Origin: Gemmatimonadota bacterium
Lineage (GTDB): Bacteria; Gemmatimonadota; Gemmatimonadetes; Gemmatimonadales; GWC2-71-9
Reading direction: 5' to 3'
Assembly (NCBI GenBank): GCA_003169895.1
Contig: PNAE01000007.1
Coordinates: 275,603 to 339,602, forward strand
DNA: 64,000 bases
The notes beneath the pieces were generated by a model that saw only the letters and a list, made by a program, of their open reading frames with translations, did not search any database and was not told where the DNA came from. Positions 8,553 through 25,778 of this stretch are shown here, one piece after another; position 1 is the stretch's first letter, and each line of letters starts with the position of its first letter. A program made the position numbers and the translations under genes.

Positions 8553-10448
8553 ATGTGCGGACTCGCAGGATGCTGGTATCGGGACGGCCAGCCGGCCGAG
8601 ACAGCTATTGCGGCGCGGATGCTCGATCGGCAGCGCCACCGCGGCCCCGATGACCGCGGCACCTGGGCCGACGGCCCGGCGACGCTCGGCCTCGATCGCC
8701 TCAGCATTCTCGACCTGAGCCTCCACGGCCACCAGCCGTTCGTCACGCCCGATGGCAGCAGCGCCCTCGCCTACAACGGCGAGGTCTACAACTGGCAGGA
8801 GCTCAAGCAGGAGCTGGAACAGGAAGGCGTCCAGTTCACCTCGCATTGCGACACCGAGGTGGTACTCCACGCCTTGCACTGTTGGGGACCGGAGACGGCG
8901 ATTCCCCGGTTCAATGGGATGTTCGCCCTGGCATGGTACGATCGCCGGGCGACCACGCTCTGGCTCGCACGGGACCGCACGGGCATCAAGCCACTCTACC
9001 TGGCCGACACCGGCCGAGTGGTGGTGTTCGCGTCCGAGGCCAAGGCGCTCTTCGCACATCCGGCGGTTCCCTGTCGTGCCGATGTCCACGCGCTGGTCAC
9101 CCAGGTGTACCTCGAGCGACTGGTCGGCGACTGGACCGCGTTCGAGGGGGTGCGGAACGTGCTGCCGGGGACGATGATACGCTGCACGCCGGCTGCCACC
9201 ACGACCATCACCTGGTTCGACCTCGAGCGCGACCTCGACATCGGCCGGATTCTCCGGAGCCGCGCCGAGCCGTTCGAGCAGCACGTGACCGAGTTCCGTG
9301 ACCGCCTCGAACGGAGCGTGGAGTTACACCTGCAGAGCGACGCACCGCTCGCGGTGATGTGCAGCGGCGGGCTCGACTCATCCCTTATCACTGCGATCGC
9401 CCGGCGGCACAAGCCCGACCTCGTGGCCTTCGTGGCCGAGGCGGCAGGACTGCGGGAATCGGAAGCCGACAAGGCTCAGCAGGTCGCCGATCATCTTGGC
9501 GTGCGCCTCCGGCGAGTCCAGATCACCAACGAGGAGTTTCCCCGACTCTGGGCCCTGGCCGCCTGGCACAATGATGAGCCGATGTACTTCCACCAGAACC
9601 CGCTGGCACTCAAGGTGAGCGAGGCAGTGCGGGATGAGGGATTCAAGGTCCTGGTGACCGGCGAGGGATCGGACGAGCTCTTCGGCGGCTACGGCTGGCA
9701 GGCCGAGACGGCGAGAATGTGGCGGCTGCGGCAGTGGCACGCGCGGCTGCTCCCCAATCTTCGCCCGCTCCGTGCCATCGGGCGCTGGCTGCAATGGCTG
9801 GCGCCGTTCGACCTCGAACACCTCGCCACTGAACCGTTCGACCGCCGCAGTCAGTGGCACCGCGCTCCGCCAGGCGCCGAGCTCGTGATCGACGGCGGCA
9901 TGCGGCGGCGCCGGGCCCGGTCACTCTTCGCGCAGCTCGAACGGATTCCACGCATCGACGAACGTGCATTTCTCGCCCGGGAGTTCGACGATTTCTATCA
10001 TCACCTGCGCGTCCTCCTCAGGGCAAATGACAAGATGACGATGGCGGCGTCCATCGAGGCACGGGTGCCGTTCATTGAAAACACCCTCATCGATTTCGGG
10101 CTGCACCTCGCGCCGGCATCGAAGTATGGCAACCGCCAGAGCAAGCGGGTGGTGAAAGCCGCCGCCGCGGGATTGCTGCCCCGAAGCATCATCCACGCCG
10201 AAAAGGTCGGGTTCGCGGTGCCGAATGGCTTCATGACGGGCTACGAACCACTGCTCCGTGACGGCATCGTGCCGCAGCTGTTCAAGTGGGGCGAACGCGA
10301 GAGTGACCGGATGCATGAGGTGATGCGCGCCGACCCGATGCTGGGCCGCCACATGGTTAGCATGGAACTGTGGGCCCAGCTGTACCTCAACGGGAGGACC
10401 CCGGAAGAGTTGACCGAGCGGTTGAAAACGGTGCGAAGGAAGCGGTGA
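8553..10448 (+). CDS. asnB: Glutamine-dependent asparagine synthetase-like amidotransferase
   Basis: 631 residues starting MCGLAGCWYR, so Cys2 becomes the N-terminal nucleophile after Met removal. The class II glutaminase domain continues with QRHRGPDDRG and YNGEVYNW. The synthetase half has the PP-loop SGGLDSSLIT near residue 270, TGEGSDELFGGYG, and a late VPFIENTLIDFGL helix. It transfers ammonia from glutamine to an ATP-activated carboxylate. Free-standing paralogues of this type occur in exopolysaccharide clusters (modifying uronic acids or amino acids) and as the cyclases of lasso peptides. The intact Cys2 favours a real amidotransferase. Neighbours are a GT-C enzyme upstream and convergent ATP-grasp and glycosyltransferase genes. 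Confidence 0.93.
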   Translation: MCGLAGCWYRDGQPAETAIAARMLDRQRHRGPDDRGTWADGPATLGLDRLSILDLSLHGHQPFVTPDGSSALAYNGEVYNWQELKQELEQEGVQFTSHCDTEVVLHALHCWGPETAIPRFNGMFALAWYDRRATTLWLARDRTGIKPLYLADTGRVVVFASEAKALFAHPAVPCRADVHALVTQVYLERLVGDWTAFEGVRNVLPGTMIRCTPAATTTITWFDLERDLDIGRILRSRAEPFEQHVTEFRDRLERSVELHLQSDAPLAVMCSGGLDSSLITAIARRHKPDLVAFVAEAAGLRESEADKAQQVADHLGVRLRRVQITNEEFPRLWALAAWHNDEPMYFHQNPLALKVSEAVRDEGFKVLVTGEGSDELFGGYGWQAETARMWRLRQWHARLLPNLRPLRAIGRWLQWLAPFDLEHLATEPFDRRSQWHRAPPGAELVIDGGMRRRRARSLFAQLERIPRIDERAFLAREFDDFYHHLRVLLRANDKMTMAASIEARVPFIENTLIDFGLHLAPASKYGNRQSKRVVKAAAAGLLPRSIIHAEKVGFAVPNGFMTGYEPLLRDGIVPQLFKWGERESDRMHEVMRADPMLGRHMVSMELWAQLYLNGRTPEELTERLKTVRRKR

Positions 10449-10475
10449 GACGGGCTGCAGCGACGGTAGAATTCG

Positions 10476-10494
10476 GCGTGACCGAAGGTCACGC
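10476..10494. terminator. Hairpin between convergent genes
   Basis: A perfect 8-bp stem (GCGTGACC / GGTCACGC) with a GAA loop lies in the 64-bp gap between the ends of the asparagine synthetase-like gene and the convergent ATP-grasp gene. There is no T-run on either side, so if it ends transcription it does so without a classical U-tract. Confidence 0.4.
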
Positions 10495-10512
10495 GACGAT
10501 GCGTATCGATCC

Positions 10513-11670
10513 TCAGTCGTCGCCGGCCAGCGCGAGAGCCTCAAATTCGATCCACTCGGGTGACGCGAGACGGCGGCGCTCCAGGATCCCTCCGGCGCCC
10601 ACCTCATGCAACAACCGGATGAAGGCGCCTCTGGTGAGTCCTCGACCCGCCGGCAGTTGCATCAGCTTCTCGCACCAGCTCGCGTTTGCTTCGATCACCA
10701 CCGGACCGGTCGCTGTCACCGCGATGTCCCATCCAATGGCACGGCGCGGCGTCAGCAGCGGAGCGCCGGCGAGAGCCATCGCCAGGACGCGCGGCCAATC
10801 GGGAATCCGGCAGCCGGTGATCGCCACGCCGGTGGTCGGGTGATGGTCGAATCGCGGCGCACCACTGCCATCGGTGGCCGGACCCACGATGCCGGTGGCG
10901 AGGTCCACCGCTGCCACGAGGTTGCCCTTGGCGAGGTTGTCCACTCCCGAATCGCCCACTGGCAGCTTGAGCGTGGCGGCATGCACCACCGCGGTTCCGT
11001 CGACCAGAAGCGTCAGCAGCCGCACTGTCGGAGTGGCCCCGGGACGAAACTCCGCCAACACCGGATGGGGGCGCACCCAGCGCTCGATCCGCCACGACTC
11101 GCCGCCATGCGAAACGAGTCGCTGCCACAGTGCGTCGGCAGAAAACTCGTCGCCCGAAAGCAGCTTCACTCCGCCAGCGCCGGCTGCCGTCGCCACCAGG
11201 ATGCCATCCCCCTGCATACCATGCTCGGGCTTGAAAACGAGGCCACCGTCACCCTGGGCCTCGAGCAGTACCGCGAGCGCCGCGGCGGTGCGCGCGATCG
11301 GCACCGAGTCGATCGCGGCGGGCGCGGTGATACCGACCCGCCCCACCAGCGTCGGCACGGGCAGTCCGGCGCTGGCGAACAACACCAGCGTCTCGGATTT
11401 CGAGCGGTGGTGAGTTGCAGGCTCGCGACGGTTGGTGGCCGCTTCCGTCAAGCGACGCTCGCGCTGGCTGGTGTAGCTGAGTCGCTCCACGGGCGTGAGC
11501 TCAGGTCGCCAGACGCGGTACTTGAAGTACTCGGCGCGGCCCATCCCCGTGGCACTGCGGAGTTCGGCGAGTTGGCGGAGCTGCCGCCGGATTGAGACGA
11601 CGGCGATTGCCCGGACGCCAAGAAGCTGTCGGATACCCTGCTGGGCGGTGATGAGCGGATTGATCAGCAC
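10513..11670 (-). CDS. Sugar-transfer-associated ATP-grasp protein (first of three)
   Basis: 385 residues. Two blocks are diagnostic of the ATPgrasp_ST family: KPEHGMQGDGILV (nucleotide-binding lysine and glycine loop) and the terminal metal-binding region AIGWDIAVTATGPVVIEANAS followed by W. An N-terminal helical part contains MGRAEYFKYRVW, echoed by MDRAEFMGYGLW in the paralogue at 22974-24110. ATP-grasp enzymes make an acyl-phosphate and couple it to an amine or thiol; members of this family lie in surface-glycan clusters. It is the last gene of the operon from the PqqD-like gene, 13 bp after the HprK/GT2 fusion. Confidence 0.88.
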   Translation of the reverse strand: MLINPLITAQQGIRQLLGVRAIAVVSIRRQLRQLAELRSATGMGRAEYFKYRVWRPELTPVERLSYTSQRERRLTEAATNRREPATHHRSKSETLVLFASAGLPVPTLVGRVGITAPAAIDSVPIARTAAALAVLLEAQGDGGLVFKPEHGMQGDGILVATAAGAGGVKLLSGDEFSADALWQRLVSHGGESWRIERWVRPHPVLAEFRPGATPTVRLLTLLVDGTAVVHAATLKLPVGDSGVDNLAKGNLVAAVDLATGIVGPATDGSGAPRFDHHPTTGVAITGCRIPDWPRVLAMALAGAPLLTPRRAIGWDIAVTATGPVVIEANASWCEKLMQLPAGRGLTRGAFIRLLHEVGAGGILERRRLASPEWIEFEALALAGDD

Positions 11671-11683
11671 GCGCGCCGCCCAC

Positions 11684-13543
11684 TCACTGTGCTTCTTCCG
11701 CGACGACGATCCCCGGTTCGGTGCGGCGCCTGTCGATCGCCTTCTTGAACAGGCGAAGCGTATTCAATTCCACGAGCGACTTGCCGCGCGTCATGTTGCC
11801 GTCGTGCCGGCGCACGAAAAGCGTCACCTCGTCGAGGTGGAGAATGTTCAGGCCGTGCTCGACAGCCCGCGTGAACCAATCGGTGTCCTCGCTGAAGCGC
11901 AGCTCCTTATCGAAGAGACCAACCCGCTCGAAGGCTCGACGACGGTACACGCCGGCGCCGATGTAGTACGGAAACGCCTCCGACGGGCTTCCGATGTACT
12001 CGCCGTGTTCCTCGTACGTCGTGAAGCGCGTCACCTGCGCGCGCCCGTGCACGACGTCCAGGCCGGGTTGCTCCGCCAGCAGGTCGACGAGGCTGCCGAG
12101 GGTGCGCTCCGGCCACAGGTCGTCCACGTCGAGGAAGGCGAGAAGCTCTCCGGAGGCGTCGCGAATGCCGCGATTGCGCGCCGACGCCGCGCCGGCGTTC
12201 TCCTGGCGGAAATTGCGCACGTCCACCGGAAGGGCCGCGACGGCGGCGTCCACGTTGTCGGTGGACCCGTCATCCACCACGATGATCTCGATGGCCGGGT
12301 ACTCCTGCGCCAGCACGCTGCGCACCGCGTAGGGGAGAAACCCGGCTCCATTGTAGACCGGAATGATCACGCTGACCAGCGGACGCGCCGGCGCGCCCGG
12401 TGCGGCACCGGGGGATGTGGCAAGTCGGTCGAGCGCCGCCCCATCAAGTCGAAGGATCGACCGGATCGTCTCCGGTAACGTCGTGATGTCGTGCCCGAGC
12501 GCGAGATGCAACCCGGGAAGGCGGCGAAGCATCCGATCGATGAACGCGTGGGTGCGCCCCCCGGCGTGCGGGAGCTGTGAGAGCGTGGTGAACTCTGCCG
12601 CGCGCAGCAACGCGGCGCTCGACGCCGCCGACACGATCGTTCGCGGTCCGTCGCCGAAGGACGGCGTTGCGATGGCCTTGAGTGGGAGCGACCGGCGCAC
12701 CTGCTCGGCGTAGCGCGGCACGAGCTGGATGACCGCCTTGTCGTCCCCGTGCGGGGCTCCGTTCGCGACAAGCTCGCGCAGCTCGGGGAATCGCTCCACC
12801 TGTCCGGCATCGAGCTTGGCCGTGCTGTACAGGCTGTACGCACGCGGCTCCGGCTCGAGGCGAACCACGAGGTAGTCGTCGGCCACGTACTGCATGCCCG
12901 CCGAGAGGCAGGCGAGGGCTGTGGTGGACTTTCCGACGCCTCCTCTGCCGGTGATGAGCAGGGCGCCGTCCGCGGTGCCGACCGCCGCCGCGTGCAGCAG
13001 CTGGGCACCGTTCTCTTCCATCCACCAGTGGAACAGCGTACGGAAAGGAGACGCCTTGGTCCAGTACGGCATCTTCTCGTCGGAGCGCACCCAGAACATT
13101 CCGGTGCGCCGGTCGAGATCGAGCAGGTTGAGCGAGAATTCGACCCAGTGGAAGGCACTGCGCAGTCGCGGACTCGTCATCCCCCAGATGTCGCCGCGGT
13201 CGGTGAAGCACTGGCGCGTGCACGGGGGCGGGATCATCTCGACGCCGGTCGAGACGCTGTCCCAGACGTGAATCGTCACGTCGGGCGTCGTGTCCGGCGG
13301 CTCGATGAGGTGCGCGAGTGCCGCTGTCAGCGAAGCAAGCAGGCGGTCCCCAGCGAAGACGAGTTCCACGCGGGTCCCCGCGACGTCGAAGTGGCGCCGC
13401 ACGGTGCCGGCACGCGCCTCTGCCTGAACACAGTTCGCCATCGCCGCGTCGAAGAACGCGCGCTGTTCCTCCTCGGGGAGCTCCGGCGTATCCGACCGGT
13501 GCGGCTGTGCGGCGGAGTCGGGCGCCTTCCCGCGGTCCGTCAC
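11684..13543 (-). CDS. HPr-kinase-like domain fused to GT2 glycosyltransferase
   Basis: 619 residues from GTG 13543, which overlaps the ABC exporter's stop as GTGA; the frame runs upstream but only inside that gene. Residues about 30-375 resemble HPr-kinase/phosphorylase-like proteins, with a Walker A loop GRGGVGKSTTAL (199-210), then YVADDYLVV and a long helical end. From about residue 389 a complete-looking GT-A domain begins: SVIIPVYNG, IIVVDDGSTDN, and DVDDLWPE as the DXD-type site, followed by FSEDTDWFTRA. Stand-alone HprK-like proteins are known beside PqqD-like and nucleotidyltransferase genes; the fusion to a glycosyltransferase suggests that phosphorylation and glycosyl transfer act on one substrate. 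Domain calls are good; joint function is inference. Confidence 0.85.
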   Translation of the reverse strand: MTDRGKAPDSAAQPHRSDTPELPEEEQRAFFDAAMANCVQAEARAGTVRRHFDVAGTRVELVFAGDRLLASLTAALAHLIEPPDTTPDVTIHVWDSVSTGVEMIPPPCTRQCFTDRGDIWGMTSPRLRSAFHWVEFSLNLLDLDRRTGMFWVRSDEKMPYWTKASPFRTLFHWWMEENGAQLLHAAAVGTADGALLITGRGGVGKSTTALACLSAGMQYVADDYLVVRLEPEPRAYSLYSTAKLDAGQVERFPELRELVANGAPHGDDKAVIQLVPRYAEQVRRSLPLKAIATPSFGDGPRTIVSAASSAALLRAAEFTTLSQLPHAGGRTHAFIDRMLRRLPGLHLALGHDITTLPETIRSILRLDGAALDRLATSPGAAPGAPARPLVSVIIPVYNGAGFLPYAVRSVLAQEYPAIEIIVVDDGSTDNVDAAVAALPVDVRNFRQENAGAASARNRGIRDASGELLAFLDVDDLWPERTLGSLVDLLAEQPGLDVVHGRAQVTRFTTYEEHGEYIGSPSEAFPYYIGAGVYRRRAFERVGLFDKELRFSEDTDWFTRAVEHGLNILHLDEVTLFVRRHDGNMTRGKSLVELNTLRLFKKAIDRRRTEPGIVVAEEAQ

Positions 13544-15255
13544 GGCGCTGGCGCCGCCGCGCGCGCGTGACGATCCTCGGGCACCAGCTGCCCGCCATGC
13601 AGACGGTAGACCTCGTTCGCGTAGTCCACGACCTTCGGGTCGTGGCTCACCACTACCAGCGTGGGGCGGTCGGGCCATTCGACGAGGCGCCGCATGAGGC
13701 GCTCGATCGCTGAAACGTCGAGGTGATTGGTCGGCTCGTCGAGGATGAGGATACGTGGCCGGCCAAGGAGGGCGCGGGCGATCGCGAGGCGCTGTCCCTC
13801 GCCACCCGAGAGCAGGGCGCCACCCTCACCGATCTCCGTCTCGTAGCCCTTCGGGAGCGTCGCCACGACTTCGTCGGCGAGGGCGACGTGGGCCGCTGCC
13901 GCGACTTCCTCGAGGGTCGCCTCCGGCGATCCGTATGCGATGTTCTCGAAGACCGTCCCCGCGAAGAACGCGGGGTGCTGCGGCACGACTCCGATGGCGC
14001 GCCTCACCAGCCGCATGGCGACCTCGTCGTACGGCACGCCGCTCGCGAGGAGCTGACCCTTCCCCGGACGGTAGAAGCCGAGGAGCAGGTGCATCAGCGT
14101 GCTCTTCCCCGCACCATTGGGGCCGACGAGCGCGACGTTCGCCCCGGTCCGGAGCAGGAGGTTCACGCCGCGGAGCACGGGCTCCTCGCCGTAGCCGAAC
14201 CAGACGTCGCGAAACTCGATCGTCCCATCGAAGTCGATCGACTGCTGTCCCTGATACGGCTCCGGCGCCCCCTCGGTGACCAGCCGGTGCAGCGTGACGA
14301 GGGACTCGTTGCCGGCGAGCAGGTCGGGGATGCCGGTCATGAGCGTGTCGACGAAACCGTTCAGCATTCCCGCCGCGACGTAGAAGGCGACGAACGAGCC
14401 AAGGGTCATGGTGCCGCGCGCGATGGCCGCACCGCCGACGATGAGAATGAGGATTCCCGTGATGCCCATCAGCGTGCGCTGCACCTGACCGTGTACCGCG
14501 TAGCTCATCGCCATGCGGTGCCCGGTGGTGCGCAGGTCGCCGATGTGGCGCTGCTGACGCTCCATCTCCTCAGCCTCGAACGCCTTCATGCGCGTGAGGT
14601 CGATCTGCCGGACGGCGAAGTGCACCCCGCGGCTGAAGCCCTCGAACGCACGCTGGAAGGTGAAGACCTGGCGCTTCACGAACCAGCCGGAGAACCGTGC
14701 GGAGATCCAGAGTAGCGGCAGGACGGCACCGCCGAGCAGCAGCAGCCGCCAGTTGAGCGCGAGCAGCACGATCAGCAGTACGACCGCCGAAAACGCGGCG
14801 GGGAGCATGCCGGAGAAGAGCGTGTTGCTCAGATTGTCCACGCGCTCGCTGTCCTGCACGATGCGTGTCTGCAGCACGGAGAGGTCGGCGTGTCCGAAGT
14901 ATTCGCGCGACAAGCCGTAGACGCGCGCGATGAGGTCGCGGCGCAGATCCGCCACGGCACCCTTGATCGTGTGCAGCACGTGTGAGCGCAGCCCGAGGGC
15001 GACGACGCTGCCGAGGGCGCGCAGGAGGATGATCGCAGCACCGATGCGGACGAGGGCGCCGACATTGCGGTGGGGAATGGCACTGTCGAACGCCTGCCGA
15101 ATGAGCGCGAGCACCGGAAGCACGAGTGCCGACTGCACCGAGGCACCCAGAGTGGAGACGACGAGGCGCCGCAGGCGCGGACGGTAATACCCCGCTAAGA
15201 ACCGGAGGGCAGGCCCGTCGAGGAGGTGGCGCGAGGGCGCGGGAGCGGCGGTCAG
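13540..15255 (-). CDS. ABC exporter, fused membrane and ATPase domains
   Basis: 571 residues if started at CTG 15255. No ATG, GTG or TTG occurs in frame near the expected N-terminus. CTG forms a CTGA overlap with the upstream stop, AGGA lies six bases ahead, and every other junction in this operon is a 4-bp GTGA overlap. Six helices come first (FLAGYYRPRLRRLVVSTLG to SFVAFYVAAGMLNG). The ATPase follows, with Walker A GPNGAGKST, a Q-loop, signature LSGGEGQRLA and Walker B ILILDEPT. Length and layout are those of type IV half-exporters for lipids, glycans or peptides. There is no N-terminal C39 peptidase domain, so leader cleavage would need another protein. Confidence 0.9.
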   Translation of the reverse strand: MTAAPAPSRHLLDGPALRFLAGYYRPRLRRLVVSTLGASVQSALVLPVLALIRQAFDSAIPHRNVGALVRIGAAIILLRALGSVVALGLRSHVLHTIKGAVADLRRDLIARVYGLSREYFGHADLSVLQTRIVQDSERVDNLSNTLFSGMLPAAFSAVVLLIVLLALNWRLLLLGGAVLPLLWISARFSGWFVKRQVFTFQRAFEGFSRGVHFAVRQIDLTRMKAFEAEEMERQQRHIGDLRTTGHRMAMSYAVHGQVQRTLMGITGILILIVGGAAIARGTMTLGSFVAFYVAAGMLNGFVDTLMTGIPDLLAGNESLVTLHRLVTEGAPEPYQGQQSIDFDGTIEFRDVWFGYGEEPVLRGVNLLLRTGANVALVGPNGAGKSTLMHLLLGFYRPGKGQLLASGVPYDEVAMRLVRRAIGVVPQHPAFFAGTVFENIAYGSPEATLEEVAAAAHVALADEVVATLPKGYETEIGEGGALLSGGEGQRLAIARALLGRPRILILDEPTNHLDVSAIERLMRRLVEWPDRPTLVVVSHDPKVVDYANEVYRLHGGQLVPEDRHARAAAPAP

Positions 15256-16433
15256 GTGCTGTCCTGGGCGGCGCCGACGCGCGGCGGGCGGTGGGCGATC
15301 CGGCGCCCCACGCCGCGGACGATAAGCGGCAGGATCTCCCGGCGCCCGCCGAGTTTCATGCGGAATCGCAGGTAGTGCGAGAAGCCGCTGATGAAGGCGA
15401 GCGGGCCGCGGGTGTCGGCATAGCGGCAGTATTCGACGAACGACACCCACTGCGTGGCTAGCACCGAACGCCGAAGCCGGTAGTTGTCGGCCAGCAGCAC
15501 GGTCCGTTCGACCCGCTCCACGAGCGAGACGCGCCGGGCACGCAAGCGCGCCAGAATCTCCCGGGGGACCGGCGCCGAGAAGGTGCTCGCGAGATATGCC
15601 AGCCCCAGGCCGAGCCGGTGCGTCAGCCGGTGCGCCGCGGCGACGGCAACCATGCGCTCCCAGTCGACGTCGGCGCCACGCCGACGCAGAATGGTGAGCG
15701 CGTCCGGAATCCAGCGGATCGGGGTCTCGTCGTTCCAGCGCATCCCGTGCACGACCACGAGGAGCAGGAGGCCGGTCGGGTCGAGTTGGCGCACCGGGGA
15801 GCCGAGGAAGTCGAGGGGTTCGGCGGTGGCGCGGAAGGTCCGGTCGGCGTCGTCGGACGCTGCCTCGTAAAGGACGTGCCAGTGCAGGTCGATCTCCGCA
15901 CCGCCTGGGCCGATGCACTGCACGGCGTGTCGGAAGCGGAAAACGTCCGCGTCGGGTGCATCGATGGCGCACCAGCCGATGGTCCCCAGGATTTCCAGCG
16001 CCCGGCCGGCATCGGCGGGGGCCACCATTATGTCCACATCGGCCATCGGGCGCAGCGCATGGTTGCGGTAGTAGGTGAGGGCGAGCGGCGCCCCCTTAAC
16101 CAGCAGCACCTCCACGCCGCCCGCCACGAGCGCCGCGACCACCGGCTGCACCCGGTGGAACAGCCGGTGCGTGTCGTACCAGGCGCGCCGGTAGACGCCC
16201 TTGAGCCGCCCCATGAGCGGGTCGCTGAGCCCCTGGCGCTGCATGTTCTCGTACACCAGCGGAAGCAGGCGCACGGTCTGGTAGCTGAAGTCGGCGTCCA
16301 GATCCACTCCGGCGCACCACGCCCGGAAGGCGGCGACGGACGGCGCGCCGTCGCGCAGCGCGGCCTCGAGCAGGAGGTGCTGTTCCGCGGACGGCCAGAG
16401 GTGCGCGGCGGTCCCGTCGTTGTCAGCCATCAC
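15252..16433 (-). CDS. Nucleotidyltransferase-family protein (PF14907-like)
   Basis: About 393 residues. The N-terminal region is helical (HLLLEAALRD, YQTVRLLPLVYENMQRQ). The nucleotidyltransferase signature follows as LLVKGAPLALTYY then LRPMADVDIMV, where the two Asp residues form the metal site, and later EIDLHWHVLYEA supplies the third acidic residue. Family members occur beside asparagine-synthetase-like, PqqD-like and HprK-like genes, but the target is unknown. Start is GTG 16433 (GTGA overlap with the upstream GT2 stop) or ATG 16430. Downstream, its stop overlaps the exporter's start. Position within the operon suggests that it modifies or activates the same substrate. Confidence 0.85.
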   Translation of the reverse strand: MMADNDGTAAHLWPSAEQHLLLEAALRDGAPSVAAFRAWCAGVDLDADFSYQTVRLLPLVYENMQRQGLSDPLMGRLKGVYRRAWYDTHRLFHRVQPVVAALVAGGVEVLLVKGAPLALTYYRNHALRPMADVDIMVAPADAGRALEILGTIGWCAIDAPDADVFRFRHAVQCIGPGGAEIDLHWHVLYEAASDDADRTFRATAEPLDFLGSPVRQLDPTGLLLLVVVHGMRWNDETPIRWIPDALTILRRRGADVDWERMVAVAAAHRLTHRLGLGLAYLASTFSAPVPREILARLRARRVSLVERVERTVLLADNYRLRRSVLATQWVSFVEYCRYADTRGPLAFISGFSHYLRFRMKLGGRREILPLIVRGVGRRIAHRPPRVGAAQDST

Positions 16434-17152
16434 GGCGTTCCGGCGGGACGGGAGCCGTCTCGCGCCGCGGCCGCCGCGCGCTGGCGGTCGAGCGATCCTT
16501 TGAGCGCCCGCAGGTAGTCGGCGCGCAGGTGCCGGTTTCGCGCGCCGGTGTTGGCGCCGTGGATGCGGCGCCGCAAGACCACCTGCTCCACGGTGCGCGT
16601 TACCACGCCGGCCGCGTCGGCCCGGGCGACCCAGTCGATCGTCTCGCCAACCCGGAGTGACTCGTCGAAGTCACCGACACGTGCCACGGCGGTCCGGCGG
16701 ATCAGCATCGCCCCGGCCACTCGGCCGCGGCTCACGCCCGGCGGACACGTGAGGGTCCGCCGCACCTCGTCAGGCAGTTCCGGACTGATGAACTGCTCGA
16801 CGAGGCCGGTGGCACACTCCGCTGCGACGTCGCCGGCCAGCGACTCGAGCCGGCACGAAAGGCTGTCGGGCGTCCACACGTCGTCCGCATCGAGGAAAGC
16901 GATCAGCGCGCCGCGGGCCAGTGCGAGCCCCGCATTGCGCGTCGCGCTGATGCCGCGATGGGGCTGGCGATGGCATCGCACCAGCGGCCCGAATTGCTCC
17001 GCGATCGCCGCGCTTCCATCGGTCGAGCCATCATCGATGACGAGGACTTCGATTGGACGGGGCCATTGTGCACAGGCACTCTCCAGCGCCTCGCCAAGGT
17101 AGTGCTCCATGTCGTAACACGGTACGATCACGCTGACGTCGGCTGACGTCAC
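16430..17152 (-). CDS. GT2-family glycosyltransferase
   Basis: 240 residues, a bare GT-A catalytic domain: SVIVPCYDMEHYLGEAL, VIDDGSTDGSA, the acceptor-side ISATRNAGLALARG, and FLDADDVW as the DXD-type metal motif. A basic C-terminal region contains many Arg residues. It should transfer a sugar from a nucleotide sugar on the cytoplasmic side. GTG start at 17152 shares GTGA with the stop of the next upstream glycosyltransferase. Sister enzyme to the product of 17149-17850; both are shorter than typical processive GT2 proteins and lack membrane helices, so they likely build short chains. Confidence 0.9.
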   Translation of the reverse strand: MTSADVSVIVPCYDMEHYLGEALESACAQWPRPIEVLVIDDGSTDGSAAIAEQFGPLVRCHRQPHRGISATRNAGLALARGALIAFLDADDVWTPDSLSCRLESLAGDVAAECATGLVEQFISPELPDEVRRTLTCPPGVSRGRVAGAMLIRRTAVARVGDFDESLRVGETIDWVARADAAGVVTRTVEQVVLRRRIHGANTGARNRHLRADYLRALKGSLDRQRAAAAARDGSRPAGTP

Positions 17153-17850
17153 GGGTCGCTCGCGGCAGCGCGCTTCCGCTCGATCGATCGCCGCATCGCA
17201 CGCAGCAGCAGAGCGTTGATCTGCGGATGGGAGAGCGACGCATTGGTGTCGTGCACACGCTTGATGACCAGCGTCTCGGGGAGGACGGCCATCGGCACGC
17301 GTGCGTCTCGCGCCCGGGCGAACCAGTCGGTGTCCTCACCGACGGCGAAGCTGGGATCGAATCGGCCGACGCGGGCAAAGACCTCGCGGCGCGCCAATAG
17401 CGACTCCATGATGAAGCCGGGGACCGGATGGTCGAGCAGTTCGGTGCGGAACCCCGCGGGCGGGCTCGCTCCATCGTGCAGCACGTGCTGCACGTGCGTC
17501 ACGGTATACTGCACCTGCGGGTGAGCGCTCATGTATGTGACCTGCCGCTCGAGCTTCTCCGGCAACCAGCGGTCGTCGTGCGAGATGAACGTCACGAGCC
17601 CGCAGCGCGCGGTGGCGATTCCCTGGTTGTAAGCGTTCGCGATGCCTTGCGCGTCCTGGCGGACGAGAGTCACCCCCTCGAACGTCCGCACGATCTCCGC
17701 CGTTCGATCCGACGAGTGGCCGTCGATGACGAGGATCTCGGCGGGACGCAGCGTCCCGCTGACGACGCTCGTGAGCGCGTCGGCGATGAAGCGCTCCCCA
17801 TTACGCACGATGAGGATGACGCTGACGTTCGGGGACGCGGGGGTGGTCAC
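17149..17850 (-). CDS. GT2-family glycosyltransferase
   Basis: 233 residues from GTG 17850 (GTGA overlap with the PqqD-like stop). Motifs: SVILIVRNGERFIADAL, LVIDGHSSDRTAEI, IANAYNQGIATARCG, ISHDDRW at the metal site (HDD instead of the more common DAD), and GEDTDWFARARD near the end, which is shared with the GT2 part of the HprK fusion. Cytoplasmic; donor and acceptor unknown. A longer upstream frame (to 18183) exists but lies inside the PqqD-like gene. It is the second gene of the operon transcribed from the sigma-54-like site at 18341. Confidence 0.9.
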   Translation of the reverse strand: MTTPASPNVSVILIVRNGERFIADALTSVVSGTLRPAEILVIDGHSSDRTAEIVRTFEGVTLVRQDAQGIANAYNQGIATARCGLVTFISHDDRWLPEKLERQVTYMSAHPQVQYTVTHVQHVLHDGASPPAGFRTELLDHPVPGFIMESLLARREVFARVGRFDPSFAVGEDTDWFARARDARVPMAVLPETLVIKRVHDTNASLSHPQINALLLRAMRRSIERKRAAASDP

Positions 17851-18332
17851 AACGCGCTCGCCTCCGGTTCCTTCGGCTTCGGCCACCCGGCCTCGTCGAC
17901 GTCGTGGATGGGATCCAGCATGAGCAGGTCTTCCATGTCCGAGTAGGCATTCAGAACGGGCGCCACGAACACCGTACGCGCGTGCCCATTGGGCAACGAC
18001 GGCCGCACCGGCGCCGGAGCTGTGCCCTCGTGGCGTGCGTCCTCCACAATCAGGCGTCGCTCCAGCAGCTCGGCTACGAAGGCGTCCACGGCGTGCTCCA
18101 GTTCCGTCCGGTCGCATTCGTAGCGCCCGGCCAGCGTCCCGGCTATGCCCGAGCGCCCGAGCCCCGCCTCGACGCCGCTCCATATCTCCGCCCCGCTGCC
18201 CTGCGTGCTGAAGTAGTGCCCCGACGCGAGGTCGATGATGACCGCCTCACCGTCGATGATTTCGCCGACGACCGCCGGCGCGTTGATTCTGAGAGTGGGT
18301 TCCACTGCCACCGTCCTGATTGGAGGGTCCAT
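17847..18332 (-). CDS. PqqD-like protein with leader-like C-terminal tail
   Basis: 161 residues from ATG 18332. Residues about 13-97 form a PqqD/RRE-type fold: APAVVGEIIDGEAVIID, a GHYFSTQGSGAEIW turn, then helices to LLERRLIVED. PqqD-like domains bind leader peptides for modifying enzymes. Beyond residue 98 a 64-residue tail carries VFVAPVLNAYSDMEDLLMLD (121-140), PIHDVDEAGWP and a Pro/Glu-rich end. The spacing of aromatic, Pro and Leu residues resembles lasso-peptide leaders. The predicted sigma-54 start falls at the ATG, so GTG codons at 18311 or 18305, preceded by AGGA, may be the true start. First gene of the seven-gene operon. Domain assignment is sound; the leader reading is inference. 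Confidence 0.82.
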   Translation of the reverse strand: MDPPIRTVAVEPTLRINAPAVVGEIIDGEAVIIDLASGHYFSTQGSGAEIWSGVEAGLGRSGIAGTLAGRYECDRTELEHAVDAFVAELLERRLIVEDARHEGTAPAPVRPSLPNGHARTVFVAPVLNAYSDMEDLLMLDPIHDVDEAGWPKPKEPEASAL

Positions 18333-18357
18333 CCGCGAAAAGCAACATCCATGCCAT
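18300..18357 (-). repeat. 58-bp promoter/start repeat, copy 1
   Basis: About four in five bases match the copy at 20022-20080. The match runs from the -24 element through the first codons: an identical ATGGCATGGATGTTGCTTTT, then CAGGA-N-GGTGGCAGTGGA. It precedes the PqqD-like gene. Confidence 0.8.
18341..18356 (-). promoter_or_regulatory. Sigma-54 (-24/-12) type promoter of the PqqD-like operon
   Basis: On the minus strand the site reads TGGCATGGATGTTGCT: GG and GC are ten bases apart as required, and only one base of TGGCACG-N4-TTGCW differs. The expected start of transcription is about 18330, at the annotated ATG, implying a leaderless message or a GTG start slightly downstream. No enhancer-binding activator gene is in the window. 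Confidence 0.7.
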
Positions 18358-19433
18358 CATGCCCCTGCTTCACGGCCTGGATCACTCTCCGGTCGAGCGT
18401 GACTCAGCTTGGTGATGGTATCAAGATGACCGCGCTCCGCCAAGATTTGGTGAGGAAACAGCCGCGGCCATTCGTCGGCGAAGCGTTTCTTGATCTCGTG
18501 CTGGTCGTAGATCTCTTGAACCAACGTAACGAAAGCCTCGCGATGGACTCTGAGCTTCGCGAGCACCGCGTCGCGAGGAATGTCGGGCCGCACCCCCCGA
18601 CCGATGAGCTCTCGCACCGCCTCCTCGATCGCCCGGGGTTCCGGTGGCACGGTCAGGACGAAGCTCTCTTCAAAGAACAAATCCCGACCGCCCCGGCTGG
18701 GCGTGGTCACGATCGGGAGTCCGCTCAGCAGATATTCGGCACTGGCGAACATCGGACCCTCCTCCTCCGAAAGACACAAGCCGACCCGGCAGGCGTTCAG
18801 GCAATCGTTGATCTCCCGAAGACTGAGCAGTCGATATTCGCCCGAATCCGAGTGATTGAAGAAGTGGGCGCGAGAGAATTCGCGGCGAGTTTCCCGGATG
18901 TATTCGGGACCTTCCTTCGTGGGATTGTAGATCAGGGCCAGACTGGCGATTTCCCGGGCCAGGAAGTGTCGCTTCTGTTTGTCGAGTCGTGCGTTATATA
19001 CTGCGTCGAACCGCTTCGTGACGGAGGGCAATGGCCGAAATATTGATTCGTTAACGAAGCAATTGTGGTTGCAGAGTATTGCACGTCCTCCCCGAGCTCG
19101 GAACAGTTCCGCCTGACCAGGCTCATTGCAAAGGTGAATCAACTCGACATCCGGGAATTGCTGCCTCGTGCGGCTTTCCAACTCCAGAATCCAGTCAAAC
19201 ACGCGAGACGTGAGAGCCCAACTGTGGCGAAACAGGCAGTAGGCCTTCCGCCCACGAAGTGCGGAGAACAGCATCTGATAGCTGGGCAGAAACTCGTCGA
19301 CCATATCCAGAATTGGCTGCACATGAAAAATCGGGGGATCCACCGAGATGATCGAGTAACGGGCAAAGTGGGTTCGATGGAGCCGGGCAAACCCCTCGAG
19401 CACGCCACGTCGCACCGAGTCGCGATCCGTCAT
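18357..19433 (-). CDS. GT4-like glycosyltransferase
   Basis: 358 residues from ATG 19433, whose ATGA overlaps the hydroxylase-like gene's stop. The C-terminal half has the retaining GT-B signature: CRVGLCLSEEEGPMFASAEY, with the E-x7-E pair, then LLSGLPIVTTPSRGG. The N-terminal half is Rossmann-like (YSIISVDPPIFHVQPILDM; GGRAILCNHNCFVNES). It should use a nucleotide sugar in the cytoplasm. Its stop codon ends directly against the sigma-54-like promoter of the next operon, so there is no room for a separate terminator. Longer upstream frames cross the hydroxylase gene and are shadows. Confidence 0.87.
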   Translation of the reverse strand: MTDRDSVRRGVLEGFARLHRTHFARYSIISVDPPIFHVQPILDMVDEFLPSYQMLFSALRGRKAYCLFRHSWALTSRVFDWILELESRTRQQFPDVELIHLCNEPGQAELFRARGGRAILCNHNCFVNESIFRPLPSVTKRFDAVYNARLDKQKRHFLAREIASLALIYNPTKEGPEYIRETRREFSRAHFFNHSDSGEYRLLSLREINDCLNACRVGLCLSEEEGPMFASAEYLLSGLPIVTTPSRGGRDLFFEESFVLTVPPEPRAIEEAVRELIGRGVRPDIPRDAVLAKLRVHREAFVTLVQEIYDQHEIKKRFADEWPRLFPHQILAERGHLDTITKLSHARPESDPGREAGA

Positions 19434-19966
19434 GCTTCCCGCGCTGCGCGGTCGGGCGCTCGTTGCCGGATCGAAGGTGACGCGGCGTATTGTTCCTGCG
19501 TCTGTCGAAAGGGATACACCATCCGCACCAGTGGCCTGAGCAAGAGCGACGTGACGCCGGCCACCTTTTCGTGGGGAAATGCCTCGTCCTCGATGCCCGT
19601 CTCGGGATATTCGTCGTAGCCACGGTACTGCGTGCCGAACAGGCGATCCCGGATGCTGAACAAGGCACCGAAGTTGGTATCCCGGTGCCGTCGTTCGACG
19701 GAATGATGGATTCGATGAAACTGCGGCGTGACAAGAACATAACGCAGCGGCCCGAGATTCGTGCGAATGTTGCCGTGATGGAACCGCGTGTACCACTTTG
19801 CGATGATGGAGAACCAGACGATCTGGGGCGGATCCACCTGCAGCATCAGAAATGGAATCACGAGCAACGTGTGCCCGAACGGATGCGCGACCTTGGCGAG
19901 CCAGTATGTGACCGCGAGTGCGACCACAGCAATCAGTGCTCCGATGATGAATCTGCGTCGGTTCAT
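19430..19966 (-). CDS. Fatty-acid hydroxylase/sterol-desaturase family protein, N-terminally short
   Basis: 178 residues. A membrane region (FIIGALIAVVALAVTYWLA and HTLLVIPFLML) precedes two His clusters, WYTRFHHGNI and TPQFHRIHHSVE, plus the family's DRLFGTQYRGYDEYPE ending. Full members have about 260-300 residues and an earlier His-x3-His and HRxxH box on preceding helices; that half is absent here. With half the di-iron ligands missing, activity is doubtful unless a partner supplies them. The ATG at 19966 overlaps the stop of a 30-codon ORF and its own stop overlaps the GT4 start, so the reading frame is maintained in an operon rather than obviously decaying. Confidence 0.75.
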   Translation of the reverse strand: MNRRRFIIGALIAVVALAVTYWLAKVAHPFGHTLLVIPFLMLQVDPPQIVWFSIIAKWYTRFHHGNIRTNLGPLRYVLVTPQFHRIHHSVERRHRDTNFGALFSIRDRLFGTQYRGYDEYPETGIEDEAFPHEKVAGVTSLLLRPLVRMVYPFRQTQEQYAASPSIRQRAPDRAAREA

Positions 19967-20055
19967 GGGTGACCCTCAACGATCTCGGTGAGGACGCCCG
20001 CCGCATAGCCTCCGGGCTTGAGCTCCACTGCCACCTTCCTGCTCGGCGGGACCAT
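19963..20055 (-). CDS. Short leader ORF resembling the start of the PqqD-like gene
   Basis: 30 codons from ATG 20055 (or 23 from an internal GTG), ending with an ATGA overlap on the hydroxylase-like gene. The first residues, M-x-PP-x-R-x-VAVE, line up with those of the PqqD-like protein at 18332, and AGVLTEIVEG is loosely like its GEIIDGEAV segment. It sits at the same position relative to a sigma-54-like promoter. Either a remnant of a second PqqD-like gene after a deletion, or a coupling peptide that brings ribosomes to the hydroxylase gene. Confidence 0.45.
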   Translation of the reverse strand: MVPPSRKVAVELKPGGYAAGVLTEIVEGHP

Positions 20056-20080
20056 CCGGCAAAAGCAACATCCATGCCAT
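20022..20080 (-). repeat. 58-bp promoter/start repeat, copy 2
   Basis: Second copy of the repeat at 18300-18357, here ahead of the leader ORF and hydroxylase-like gene. It keeps the -24/-12 element and the CAGGA-N-GGTGGCAGTGGA block. Confidence 0.8.
20064..20079 (-). promoter_or_regulatory. Sigma-54 (-24/-12) type promoter of the hydroxylase-GT4 unit
   Basis: Identical 16-base core to the site at 18341-18356, again with its predicted transcription start on the first ATG. Two identical cores 1.7 kb apart, each ahead of a co-directional operon, make chance unlikely. Confidence 0.7.
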
Positions 20081-20265
20081 GGGGAGCGCTACGGAACTTC
20101 CCGAAGTTGTGTCACGCCGCGGCGCTCCCAGCTCATCCTCCCGGTGGTTCGATTGCCTCCCTGATACGGAGTATCATTCGAAGTCCGCACACAACGTCTG
20201 CCGCCTGAATAGTGAATCACGCTGGCGCACGCCAGTGCATATCCCCGTGCGCCGATGGAGCATCC

Positions 20266-21102
20266 ATGGACAAGAAGTTCATCCTGAATTTCACGCCGAC
20301 GGGAATGATCCCCACCAAGGCCATGACGCCGAAGGTGCCGATCCTCCCGGCCGAGATCGTCGTGCAGGTGGGTGAAGCGGTGAAGCTGGGTGCGAACATG
20401 GTGCATCTGCACGCGCGTGACCTGCAGGATGGCAAGCCGACCTACCGGAAGGAGGTCTACGCCGAAATCGTCACCGGAGTCCGGGCGCGACACCCCGAGC
20501 TGGTCATTTGTCTCTCGACAAGTGGCCGCGACTTTCCGGGGTTCAAGGAACGCTCCGAGTGTCTCGACCTCACGGGGGACCTGAAGCCCGACATGGGGAG
20601 CCTGACGTTGAGTTCGCTCAACTTCAATACCCAGGCGAGCATGAATGCGCCTGACATGATCAAGTCACTCGCGAAGAAGATGCAGGACAACGGGATCAAG
20701 CCGGAGCTCGAGGTCTTCGACCTGGGGATGATCAACTACGCGCACTACCTGATCACCAAGGGGTTGATCACGCCACCGTACTATTTCAACCTGATCCTGG
20801 GGAACATCGCTTGCGCCCAGGCCAACCTGCTGAGCCTCGGACTGATGATCAAGGAGTTGCCGCCGGAGTCGATCTGGTCGGTGGGCGGCATCGGCGACCA
20901 TCAGCTGAAGATGAATGCCATCGGGATCGTGGACGGCGGCGGCGTACGCGTCGGTCTCGAGGACAACATCTACTTCGACGCGGACCGGGCCCAGCTGGCA
21001 TCCAACAGTGACCTCGTGAAGCGGATCGTCGATATCGCCACGGCAGTGGGGCGCACGCCCTGGTCCCACCGGGAGGCAAGGGCGTTGCTGGGGATGGCTT
21101 AG
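20266..21102 (+). CDS. BKACE-family beta-keto acid cleavage enzyme (DUF849)
   Basis: 278 residues from ATG 20266, with GGAG about eight bases upstream; the frame to 20212 is open but unsupported. The family hallmark MVHLHARDLQDGKPT (zinc-binding His pair at residues 47 and 49) and the early FTPTGMIPTKAM are present, as are GNMACAQ-like GNIACAQANLL and DGGGVRVGLEDNIY near the end. BKACE enzymes condense a beta-keto acid with acetyl-CoA, giving acetoacetate and a CoA ester, as in 3-keto-5-aminohexanoate cleavage in lysine fermentation. No other lysine-fermentation gene is nearby. The GNAT gene starts one base after its stop, so a role in making an acyl or amino group for the glycan island is possible. 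Confidence 0.88.
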   Translation: MDKKFILNFTPTGMIPTKAMTPKVPILPAEIVVQVGEAVKLGANMVHLHARDLQDGKPTYRKEVYAEIVTGVRARHPELVICLSTSGRDFPGFKERSECLDLTGDLKPDMGSLTLSSLNFNTQASMNAPDMIKSLAKKMQDNGIKPELEVFDLGMINYAHYLITKGLITPPYYFNLILGNIACAQANLLSLGLMIKELPPESIWSVGGIGDHQLKMNAIGIVDGGGVRVGLEDNIYFDADRAQLASNSDLVKRIVDIATAVGRTPWSHREARALLGMA

Positions 21103-21103
21103 C

Positions 21104-21751
21104 GTGAGCGCCTCACGGAGCCTCGCTACCCGGGTGCGTCAGGCATGGGGCAGAGTTCGGAACCAGAGCCTGCGCGTAACGCTGCGCTATTATCTCCGGC
21201 GGATGGAGATTCGCGTCATTCCATTCTACTACGTGAAGGAGCTCCTGCCGCGTGACATCCCGAGGGATCTCACCGCCTTGCCCGAGGGATTCGACTTCGA
21301 GGTGTTTGGCGAAAGGGAGATCGCGATCATCACCGGCTTTCCCGAACAGGACGCGCCTTTCATCGGCGCACACCTGCGCGAGAGCCTCAAGCATGGTCAC
21401 ACCTGCCTGGGCGTCAAGCGCCAGGGCGAGATCGTCGCCTTCACCTGGTTCGCCCTCGACGCGACCCACAGCAAGCTTCATCCGGTTGCGATGCAGCCGA
21501 ACGAGGCCTACCTGTATAACATGTATGTCTTGCCGGAAGTCCGAGGTCACAACCTCGCGCCGATCCTGCGATTCAAGAGCTACGAGATCCTGCGGACGAT
21601 GGGCCGTGACACCTTTTACAGCATCACCCTGACTTCCAACCAGGCGTCGTGGCGGTTCAAGCAGAAACTCAACGCGCAGCGCGTATTCCTCGGGTTGTAC
21701 GTTGACTTCCTCGGAAGGTTCGATGGCCGCTGGATCCTGCGGAGATTCTGA
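21104..21751 (+). CDS. GNAT-type acyltransferase
   Basis: 215 residues from GTG 21104, one base after the BKACE stop. An N-terminal basic helix (RQAWGRVRNQSLRVTLRYYLRRM) leads to a GNAT-like core: HTCLGVKRQGEIVAFTWF as the beta3-4 hairpin, YLYNMYVLPEVRGHNLAPIL as the beta4 and acetyl-CoA binding loop, then TLTSNQASWRFKQKLN. This layout is close to acyltransferases found in polysaccharide and lipid clusters. It probably acylates an amino or hydroxyl group using an acyl-CoA; coupling to BKACE, which makes acyl-CoA, is an attractive inference. Confidence 0.8.
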   Translation: MSASRSLATRVRQAWGRVRNQSLRVTLRYYLRRMEIRVIPFYYVKELLPRDIPRDLTALPEGFDFEVFGEREIAIITGFPEQDAPFIGAHLRESLKHGHTCLGVKRQGEIVAFTWFALDATHSKLHPVAMQPNEAYLYNMYVLPEVRGHNLAPILRFKSYEILRTMGRDTFYSITLTSNQASWRFKQKLNAQRVFLGLYVDFLGRFDGRWILRRF

Positions 21752-21871
21752 GGCAGCGCTCAGCGACCCGTTCCGGATGCAGGAGTAAGCGCTTTTCCCT
21801 TGCGTTCTGCGCATTCCCGCCGAGTATTCGCGAATGCTCGCAGCGCCGGTTGTTTGCCCTGAGATCGCGGG

Positions 21872-23026
21872 TTGACTTACCCTCCCGTATCACCGCTGGT
21901 GCTGCGCCAGAAGTGGCGCTCCCTCGGCGATCTCCTGGCAGGAATCCGCGAAGTGCACCGAGCGGAGCGGGTCGGGGTGATTCGCGCACTGCGCGAATAC
22001 CTGCGGATCCGTCGGGCGATCCGTGCCACGCCACGCGAGTACTTCCGTTACCGCCTATGGGACACTGCGGCGCCGCTCGCCGATCGGCTGAGCTTCATCA
22101 CCTGGGCCGATCGCCGTCCGCTCGAGGCATATCTCAACCCGAATGCCGACGCAGTGCGGGTGCGGTCCAAGATTCAGGGCGACGACCTCTTCCGTCAGCA
22201 CGGCTTGCCGATCCCGGCTCGGCTCGGTGTCTGGTGCCCCGAGGGTACTCACTCCGATGCCGCGGATGCGATCCGAACGCGTGATCAGCTGATGTCGCTG
22301 CTCAATCGCACATCAGGGGGAGTGGTCTTCAAGCGCGATTTCGGTGGCAGCGGCGAGTTCGTGCTGGTGTTCACTGCGGCTGACATGAACGGACTCCGGC
22401 ACGCCTCGGGGGCGCACTGGTCGATCGACCGTTTGCTTGAAAGCACCTCCGCTGTAGAGCCATGGCTGGTGCAGTCGCGGGTGACGGCACATCCCGAACT
22501 CGCAGCACTCGCCGGCTGCGATTATGCCGCCACGCTACGGCTGGTGACCTGCCGACGGTCGAGCGGCAGAGTGTTCCTGCTGCCGGCCACCCTCAAGTTG
22601 CCCTCTACGGCATCGGGGTGCGACAATTTCGGTGCTGGCAACGTGGCCGTCGCCGTAAGCTATGACGGCGTCCTGGGTCGGGGTGCCCTCGGGCTCGATG
22701 GTCCGCCGATCGACCGTCATCCCGTTACCGGTGCACTGTTTGAGGGAGTGACCGTGCCACATTGGGCGGCGGCGGTTGAAATCGTTCGTCGCGGCCAAGC
22801 CCTGGTCCCCACGCTGCGATCACTGGGCTGGGACGTCGCGATCACCCCCGGCGGATCGGTGATTCTTGAGACGAATGCGTGGTGGGGAGTGGACGTGATC
22901 CAGCAACCGGGATTGCGCGGACTGGTGCGTGGCGAATTCATCGAGTTTATCGAGGAGCTCGGCGCGGCGCATATTATCCGCCGGGGGCGAAGAGTGAAGC
23001 CGCATGGTTCCGCGCGGACAGGTTGA
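21872..23026 (+). CDS. Sugar-transfer-associated ATP-grasp protein (second of three)
   Basis: 384 residues from TTG 21872; GTG or ATG alternatives inside would remove conserved helices. Shared features with the protein at 10513: RATPREYFRYRLW, VVFKRDFGGSGEFVLVF (nucleotide lysine and glycine loop), LKLPSTASGCDNFGAGN and the ending SLGWDVAITPGGSVILETNA. The final 53 bases overlap tail-to-tail with the opposing paralogue at 22974. It probably ligates an amino acid or acid onto a nucleotide- or lipid-linked sugar, but no substrate is known. It follows the GNAT gene after a 120-bp gap that holds no other gene. Confidence 0.86.
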   Translation: MTYPPVSPLVLRQKWRSLGDLLAGIREVHRAERVGVIRALREYLRIRRAIRATPREYFRYRLWDTAAPLADRLSFITWADRRPLEAYLNPNADAVRVRSKIQGDDLFRQHGLPIPARLGVWCPEGTHSDAADAIRTRDQLMSLLNRTSGGVVFKRDFGGSGEFVLVFTAADMNGLRHASGAHWSIDRLLESTSAVEPWLVQSRVTAHPELAALAGCDYAATLRLVTCRRSSGRVFLLPATLKLPSTASGCDNFGAGNVAVAVSYDGVLGRGALGLDGPPIDRHPVTGALFEGVTVPHWAAAVEIVRRGQALVPTLRSLGWDVAITPGGSVILETNAWWGVDVIQQPGLRGLVRGEFIEFIEELGAAHIIRRGRRVKPHGSARTG

Positions 23027-24110: not shown

Positions 24111-24235
24111 CCGGGAGTATGTACCTCGTGCCCACCGCTGCCGCAAGCGTCCGCGGCAGACTGTTAGTGGCAAGAGCGTTCGCGGAATTCGCCGTCAAGT
24201 CAGCACGATTCAGTCATTCATCAACGAAAGACGGA

Positions 24236-24754: not shown

Positions 24755-24986
24755 TGTTGCCTCCGGCGGTCCAGCTGACGATTCTGCGCCTCTGCTGCGA
24801 CGCGTGCGGGGTGACCGCGCAACCTTGTTACATCAATGATACCTGCGCAGCTACCCCGCACACCTCGGCAGACCTCGCGTTGCCTTGATCGGCATCCGAT
24901 GGGCTTGGTGCCAACGCGCGTTTAGAGTTCCGGGCATCGCCTTCCTCGGTCTCGAGTTTTCAGCGCGGATTCGGCGGCGGTGTCGC

Positions 24987-25688: not shown

Positions 25689-25778
25689 GCTGGTCTCCTG
25701 TCGATTCAGTGTTCTGTCCGGGCAGCAAGCCGATGAGTCATCACTTGCAACAAGCGTCAACGATAGGGCCGCTGGCAG

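Follow-up and report, generated by a model that had tools for sequence, protein, structure and literature searches.

What does a PqqD-like protein do at the head of an operon of glycosyltransferase, transporter and kinase genes, and why does it end in a peptide that resembles the leader of a precursor? The question is raised by a 64,000-nucleotide stretch of a Gemmatimonadota genome of 3.42 Mb (GenBank GCA_003169895.1, contig PNAE01000007.1, positions 275,603 to 339,602, forward strand), the whole of which is called the window here. A first, sequence-only reading of the window had described a leftward operon with 4-bp overlaps, and we found this six-gene operon, with all the genes named for it, on the minus strand at 11684-18305. 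From the promoter it encodes the PqqD-like protein, two family 2 glycosyltransferases (GT2a and GT2b), a PF14907 protein, an MsbA-like ATP-binding cassette (ABC) exporter and an HprK-GT2 fusion. The PqqD-like protein has 152 residues when read from a GTG at 18305; an ATG at 18332 is a possible alternative start. Recognition elements (RREs) are the adaptors of about half of the prokaryotic pathways for ribosomally synthesized and post-translationally modified peptides (RiPPs), and the precursors of these pathways are usually hard to find. Our reading is that an RRE is tethered here to its own uncleaved, precursor-like peptide within a phosphorylating, glycosylating and exporting system. Taken as a whole we give this reading an even chance, while its parts differ in strength.

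The PqqD-like protein is an RRE that ends in a conserved tail

The PqqD-like protein of the window matched PF05402 with 46.9 bits (cut-off 23.4), and its domain matched TbiB1 with E-values of 8e-18 by profile and 1.3e-6 by fold. The nearest solved relatives by sequence were the lasso-peptide RREs TbiB1, PbaB1 and TfuB1 and the RRE LppB of the LPP peptides; in fold, the domain came closest to the complexes of TbiB1 and TfuB1 with their leaders. The domain is a lasso-type RRE. It is followed by the tail FVAPVLNAYSDMEDLLMLDPIHDVDEAGWP and then a short variable end; the tail consensus at the C-terminus of such proteins is [FYW]xxPxLxx[YF]xDMxDLLLLDPIH[DE]VxxxGWP.

We scanned 84,980 species genomes with a back-translated DNA pattern for DP[IV]H[DE]VxxxGWP and obtained at least 116 loci. 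Among the matches listed, which is the scope of all counts out of 116 given here, 116 of 116 were this tail at the end of a PqqD-like open reading frame (ORF), and they were spread over at least 19 named phyla. A tail conserved so widely is no chance ORF end. Positions -18, -15 and -8 and the 18 residues preceding the pattern were left free by the search, and we found an aromatic residue at -18 in 107/113 tails, Pro at -15 in 100/113 and Asp at -8 in 110/113. The 18 upstream tail residues carried 2.62 bits of information per column as compared to 1.88 in the RRE, 1.02 in the end and 0.80 in the linker, which joins RRE and tail over 13-30 residues. A profile search of 395 Gemmatimonadota genomes identified the tail in about ten, always ending PqqD-like genes, together with a few weak extra matches. 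No stand-alone tail peptide occurred among the 116 pattern matches listed or the strong matches of this profile search. The sequence-only reading was thus borne out both in the RRE identity of the domain and in the conservation of the tail in homologues; what it missed is that the tail is itself leader-like and, judging from modelling and sequence comparison, is most likely to dock on the RRE of its own protein.

We also considered a Ser/Thr at position -9 as a conserved phosphoacceptor and rejected it: it is present in 78/113 tails, is replaced by Asp/Glu in 20, and resembles a helix cap. A variant, DMADLLALDPPMPGLDESAWGD, is a second tail type and was seen on a PqqD-like protein flanked by two PF14907 genes (L026/L156, G340:C29). 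In another genome a second PqqD copy (L166:5161-5580, G423:C12) keeps MDPIHDID...GWP, has lost FxxPxL, and adjoins HprK and PF14907.

The tail is predicted to occupy the groove of its own RRE

The motif [FYW]xxPx[LFVI] binds lasso and LPP leaders to discrete RREs (PMC13381572), and sequence comparison indicated that the first half of the tail carries a motif of this type. We modelled the window protein by AlphaFold2 with 97 homologues and judged the docked contacts by confidence and DSSP. Residues 111-120, which include FVAPVL, had a predicted local distance difference test score (pLDDT) of 97 with strand pairing, while the linker scored 66-76.

The most stringent test of this docking was suggested by the crystal structure of LppB. 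In that structure, D70 forms a hydrogen bond with the leader Tyr, and PbaB1, a paeninodin-type RRE that takes Trp, has Gln at the equivalent site (PMC13381572). Our alignments placed LppB Asp70 and PbaB1 Gln79 at residue 72 of the window protein. This column was Asp in 16/27 tails with Tyr versus 3/66 with Phe or Trp (Fisher p = 2e-8), and it ranked first of 90 RRE columns in its association with the tail Tyr (z 7.7; the second column 3.4). On the tree we counted no fewer than 20 changes of Tyr and 14 of Asp. The model and the covariation support docking of the tail in its own RRE, and we hold this with good confidence.

A kinase, a PF14907 protein and glycosyltransferases accompany the tail

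The sequence-only reading had noted that HprK-like and PF14907-like genes recur near such sets, and it had named a comparison of genome neighbourhoods as its check. We performed this comparison and found both the tail and its neighbours conserved, so that the idea survived. In 29/30 genomes the tail gene had an HprK-like kinase gene no more than 5 kb away, and in 22/30 no more than 500 bp away. PF14907 was present somewhere in 30/30 genomes, and in 28/30 it was no farther than 11 kb from the tail gene. GT2 genes and often an ABC exporter recurred as well: among 46 loci with 4 kb of downstream sequence, 40 had GT2, 33 HprK, 25 PF14907, 15 an ABC exporter and one AsnB. HprK was the first gene downstream of the tail gene in 41/86 loci. 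Two relatives within Gemmatimonadota, L147 and L149, kept the six-gene order with identities of 40-58%. On a Crinalium plasmid (Cyanobacteriota), the genes next to that of the tailed PqqD protein encode a nucleotidyltransferase and then an HPr kinase, and GT2 and ABC-exporter genes lie farther along.

In the kinase, H153, G173, K174 and D192 (His, P-loop Lys and Asp among them) were invariant in 46 sequences. The predicted structure had the PEPCK/HprK fold over its full length with a pLDDT of 95 and matched PEPCK by Foldseek with an E-value of 7e-11; by predicted fold and residues, the domain is an HprK/PEPCK-fold kinase. Its fusion to GT2 was seen in 7/73 HprK ORFs. In a metagenome-assembled genome (MAG) of Terriglobia (G414, L157:5086-7488), an 800-residue protein consists of three RRE (PqqD) units fused to an HprK-like kinase. 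A leader-like segment follows each unit, the first tail being canonical and the other two decayed. Very probably, the tailed RRE, the kinase, PF14907 and the GT2s form one functional unit.

The earlier proposal of a peptide or glycan modification system is supported in part: for the RRE, HprK, PF14907, GT2 and exporter, which recur, and not for the remaining genes that it had included. AsnB and ATP-grasp, tried as core members, were near 1/116 and 0/116 tail loci, respectively, and no homologue of the GT4 or hydroxylase of the second unit was found near tail genes in the scanned loci.

A near-identical copy of the locus in a MAG of another family (G387) was considered as a sign of recent horizontal transfer, which we rejected since it looks like an assembly chimera. 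The copy (L151, G387:C106:14000-33900) is almost identical to window 12124-27088 and is joined to an unrelated RND-pump gene through a short shared repeat inside HprK-GT2. The contig is probably chimeric or mis-binned.

What the tail may do

In the lasso and LPP peptides so far tested, phosphorylation is carried out by HprK-like kinases (PMC9266682, PMC13381572), and PsmN, annotated as a nucleotidyltransferase, is required for the hexose on phosphorylated Ser (PMC9266682); the PF14907 protein of the window is possibly of the PsmN/LppN type, by annotation. In view of these activities on peptides, we suggest that the RRE presents the tail to HprK, PF14907 and the GT2s. We envisage that the RRE would be joined by the linker to its own precursor-like peptide, whose start, [FYW]xxPx[LFVI], would fill the groove as a lasso or LPP leader does. 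The docked start would present the nearly invariant DMxDLLLLDPIH[DE]VxxxGWP, and this segment would be recognized by the kinase, the PF14907 transferase and the GT2s, which may share one substrate, phosphorylated and then glycosylated as by PsmK and PsmN. The MsbA-like pump would export the modified peptide or a chain built on the tail. The tail probably stays attached, as neither a leader peptidase nor a cyclase is present. By analogy with these systems, what is modified and exported may be the tail, or a chain that starts on it, for which we judge the chances to be a little short of even. A doubtful extension is that the system could form a class not recognized before, in which an RRE keeps a near-invariant peptide that the kinase, the PF14907 transferase and the GT2s modify in place. 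Such an RRE could act universally, throughout at least 19 phyla, as the protein-linked carrier or primer on which an exported phosphoglycan or glycopeptide is built.

Several observations weigh against this reading. AlphaFold cannot separate docking in cis from domain-swapped docking in trans, and the phylogenetically independent pairs on well-supported branches, though pointing the same way as the association (about 2.5 with it and about 0.1 against it; n=4), were too few for significance. Since the second copy in G423 is without FxxPxL, docking of the tail is not needed everywhere. The chief difficulty is that there is no conserved Ser, Thr or Cys in the DM...GWP segment; 48/113 tails have none at all in it, and 22/113 have none from this segment to the protein end. 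Ser phosphorylation as in paeninodin or LPP therefore cannot be general, which leaves another acceptor (Asp, His or Trp) or a tail that is a pseudo-substrate. A core so constant is unusual for a RiPP, and no recurring peptidase was detected among the recurrent neighbour families scanned.

A captured pseudo-substrate is the alternative that fares best, and we regard it as a tentative but serious possibility. The precursor-derived tail would no longer be modified; docked, it would be a scaffold that recruits and activates the HprK-like kinase and the GT2s, which would act on another substrate, such as the lipid-linked sugar of a surface polysaccharide. The missing acceptor Ser/Thr, with Asp, Glu or His at the Ser position of split cores, fits this alternative, as do the lack of a peptidase and a motif near-constant across 19 phyla, as a docking peptide would be. 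The abundance of genes for GT2, GT4 and sulfotransferases at the tail loci and the fusion of RRE-tail units to HprK point the same way. However, the HprK-like and PF14907-type proteins of known activity act on peptides (PMC9266682, PMC13381572), the exporter in 15 of the 46 loci suggests a product, and no alternative substrate was identified.

It is improbable that this is an ordinary locus for a capsule or exopolysaccharide with the PqqD-like protein as an incidental passenger. Nearby genes that would suit such a locus are those of many glycosyltransferases, three ATPgrasp_ST genes and one for a transferase of the PMT type. Against it, RRE-tail, HprK and PF14907 are linked much too constantly from phylum to phylum, tail and RRE covary, and the window genes that we scanned included none of the Wzx/Wzy/WbaP type. 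It is very improbable that the locus is a lasso-peptide or LPP cluster with AsnB as macrolactam cyclase and an overlooked small precursor: paeninodin and LPP clusters share the RRE, HprK, PF14907 and MsbA-like exporter (PMC13381572), but AsnB is an asparagine synthase with Cys2 that falls far under the lasso-cyclase cut-offs and is near only one of the 116 loci, no B2 or SipW-type peptidase was found among the cluster genes or recurrent neighbour families scanned, and the six operon genes, overlapping by 4 bp, have no space between them for a precursor.

A possible split relative

A locus in a deltaproteobacterial genome that also has a tailed system (G428, L162:2021-4709) contains a tail-less RRE, HprK and PF14907 together with six tandem small peptides of 30 residues, each made up of YEKPELVIYEDLSDVT and a short core with Ser in it. 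Their leaders scored 19.8 bits against the first half of the tail profile, where the highest score among 2700 shuffles was 10.1, although it counts against this comparison that only the match beyond YxxP (YxDLxD) is independent, because the YxxP-type filter by which the small precursors were selected required a YxxP-like motif. The locus is possibly an undescribed split relative. The simplest history would be that a separate precursor was fused to the RRE and lost, or exchanged for other residues, both its site of cleavage and its acceptor Ser.

Relation to known systems

The closest described system is LPP (Popov et al. 2026, PMC13381572), which likewise has a discrete RRE, an HprK-like kinase, an NTP transferase and an MsbA-like exporter, the last three all being present in the window. 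LPP further resembles the window system in having no cyclase, a [Y/W]xxP-type leader and a setting in polysaccharide loci. LPP systems, however, are limited to Bacillota and have separate, variable precursors and a SipW-like peptidase (PMC13381572), whereas here the RRE itself ends in a near-constant peptide, in at least 19 phyla and with GT2s and HprK-GT2 fusions. We found no SipW-like signal peptidase among the window cluster genes or recurrent neighbour families. In place of a separate precursor of the form YxxPxVLxHQxIxFETxxS with a phosphorylated Ser, the peptide is fused to the RRE and has no conserved Ser/Thr.

The phosphorylated lasso peptides of the paeninodin and pseudomycoidin type (PadeK; PsmK, PsmN) share the HprK-like kinase and the nucleotidyltransferase-type protein, but their lasso cyclase, B2 protease, separate precursor and conserved phosphoacceptor are absent here; neither a lasso macrolactam cyclase nor a B2 leader peptidase was found among the window cluster genes. 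The lasso RREs TbiB1, TfuB1 and PbaB1 have the same fold, groove and aromatic-xx-Pro-x-Leu ligand motif, yet they bind a separate leader while the window RRE has its ligand on its own chain. The NCBIfam HPr-rel-A system (TIGR04352/TIGR04353) also combines a PqqD-like protein with an HprK-related kinase, but the tail lies outside those models, and the window gave 20.1 bits for TIGR04352 (cut-off 200) and no match for TIGR04353. The PqqD-like protein passed no NCBIfam model and, in Pfam, PqqD only. PqqA, PqqC and PqqE are absent from the operon, which sets it apart from the biosynthesis of pyrroloquinoline quinone. The RRE-tail system works like the LPP or pseudomycoidin type yet belongs to neither. 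Searches of the literature outside subscription papers for the tail motif, for HPr-rel-A and for fusions of an RRE to its precursor turned up no description of the motif or of an RRE carrying its own precursor.

As a single protein combines adaptor and peptide and has a signature of 30 residues that can be searched for, many uncharacterized loci from most parts of the bacterial tree become one testable family. The tailed RRE is also a natural single-chain pair of RRE and ligand, and it bears on the roles that HprK-like kinases and PF14907 proteins have in the neighbourhood of polysaccharide loci.

Operon, promoters and flanking genes

The features of the locus are collected in Table 1. All five junctions of the operon are 4-bp overlaps with the sequence GTGA, except for CTGA at 15252-15255. 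The ABC exporter probably starts with the CTG inside this overlap, since no ATG, GTG or TTG is suitably placed as its start.

Table 1. Features of the RRE-tail locus and its flanks (window positions)
Feature	Position	Strand	Remarks
AsnB, glutamine-dependent asparagine synthetase	8553-10448	+	TIGR01536 above cut-off; converges on operon
Sugar-transfer-associated ATP-grasp	10513-11670	-	PF14397; 13 nt past HprK-GT2 stop; same direction
HprK/PEPCK-fold kinase with C-terminal GT2	11684-13543	-	One fusion protein
MsbA-like ABC exporter without C39 peptidase	13540-15255	-	
PF14907 (NTP_transf_5) nucleotidyltransferase-like protein	15252-16433	-	
GT2b glycosyltransferase	16430-17152	-	PF00535; neighbour kept across loci
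GT2a glycosyltransferase	17149-17850	-	PF00535; neighbour kept across loci
PqqD-like RRE protein with precursor-like tail	17847-18305	-	PF05402; TbiB1-like; AlphaFold
Tail FVAPVLNAYSDMEDLLMLDPIHDVDEAGWP (residues 113-142 of PqqD-like protein)	17880-17969	-	
Sigma54-type promoter element TGGCATGGATGTTGCT	18341-18356	-	Ahead of PqqD-tail operon; -24/-12 consensus
GT4-like glycosyltransferase, second unit	18357-19430	-	PF13692, under curated cut-off
Fatty-acid-hydroxylase-like protein, second unit	19430-19966	-	PF04116
23-codon remnant of PqqD start, VAVELKPGGYAAGVLTEIVEGHP	19963-20034	-	4-bp overlap with hydroxylase ATG
Second sigma54-type element, TGGCATGGATGTTGCT	20064-20079	-	Duplicated together with PqqD start

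As the sequence-only reading had observed, the same promoter core, TGGCATGGATGTTGCT, precedes both the operon and the second unit. The genome has an RpoN gene, and in its 3.42 Mb only three exact matches to the sigma54 consensus were found (one for the reversed-pattern control). Sigma54 control of the whole tail family was rejected: upstream of 106 other tail genes we found a single -24/-12-like site as compared to 0.34 expected, so the promoter is a local feature. The two promoter regions are alike without gaps over about 96 nt, reaching into the first PqqD codons, and the second unit therefore has a diverged copy of the promoter and the PqqD start. The 23-codon remnant of that start may act as a translated leader.

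AsnB is probably unrelated to the RRE-tail system. Its glutaminase Cys2 is intact, it scored above the asparagine-synthase cut-off and far below two lasso-cyclase cut-offs (169 vs 525 and 81 vs 300 bits), and it is the sole full-length Asn_synthase in the genome. Three ATPgrasp_ST (PF14397) genes lie within 14 kb, at 10513-11670, 21872-23023 and 22977-24173, two of them overlapping convergently. Outside the operon, a small protein at 24239-24754 has a Cys-His-Asp pattern and a weak match to PF13471 (E 0.0024), the transglutaminase fold of the lasso B2 type.

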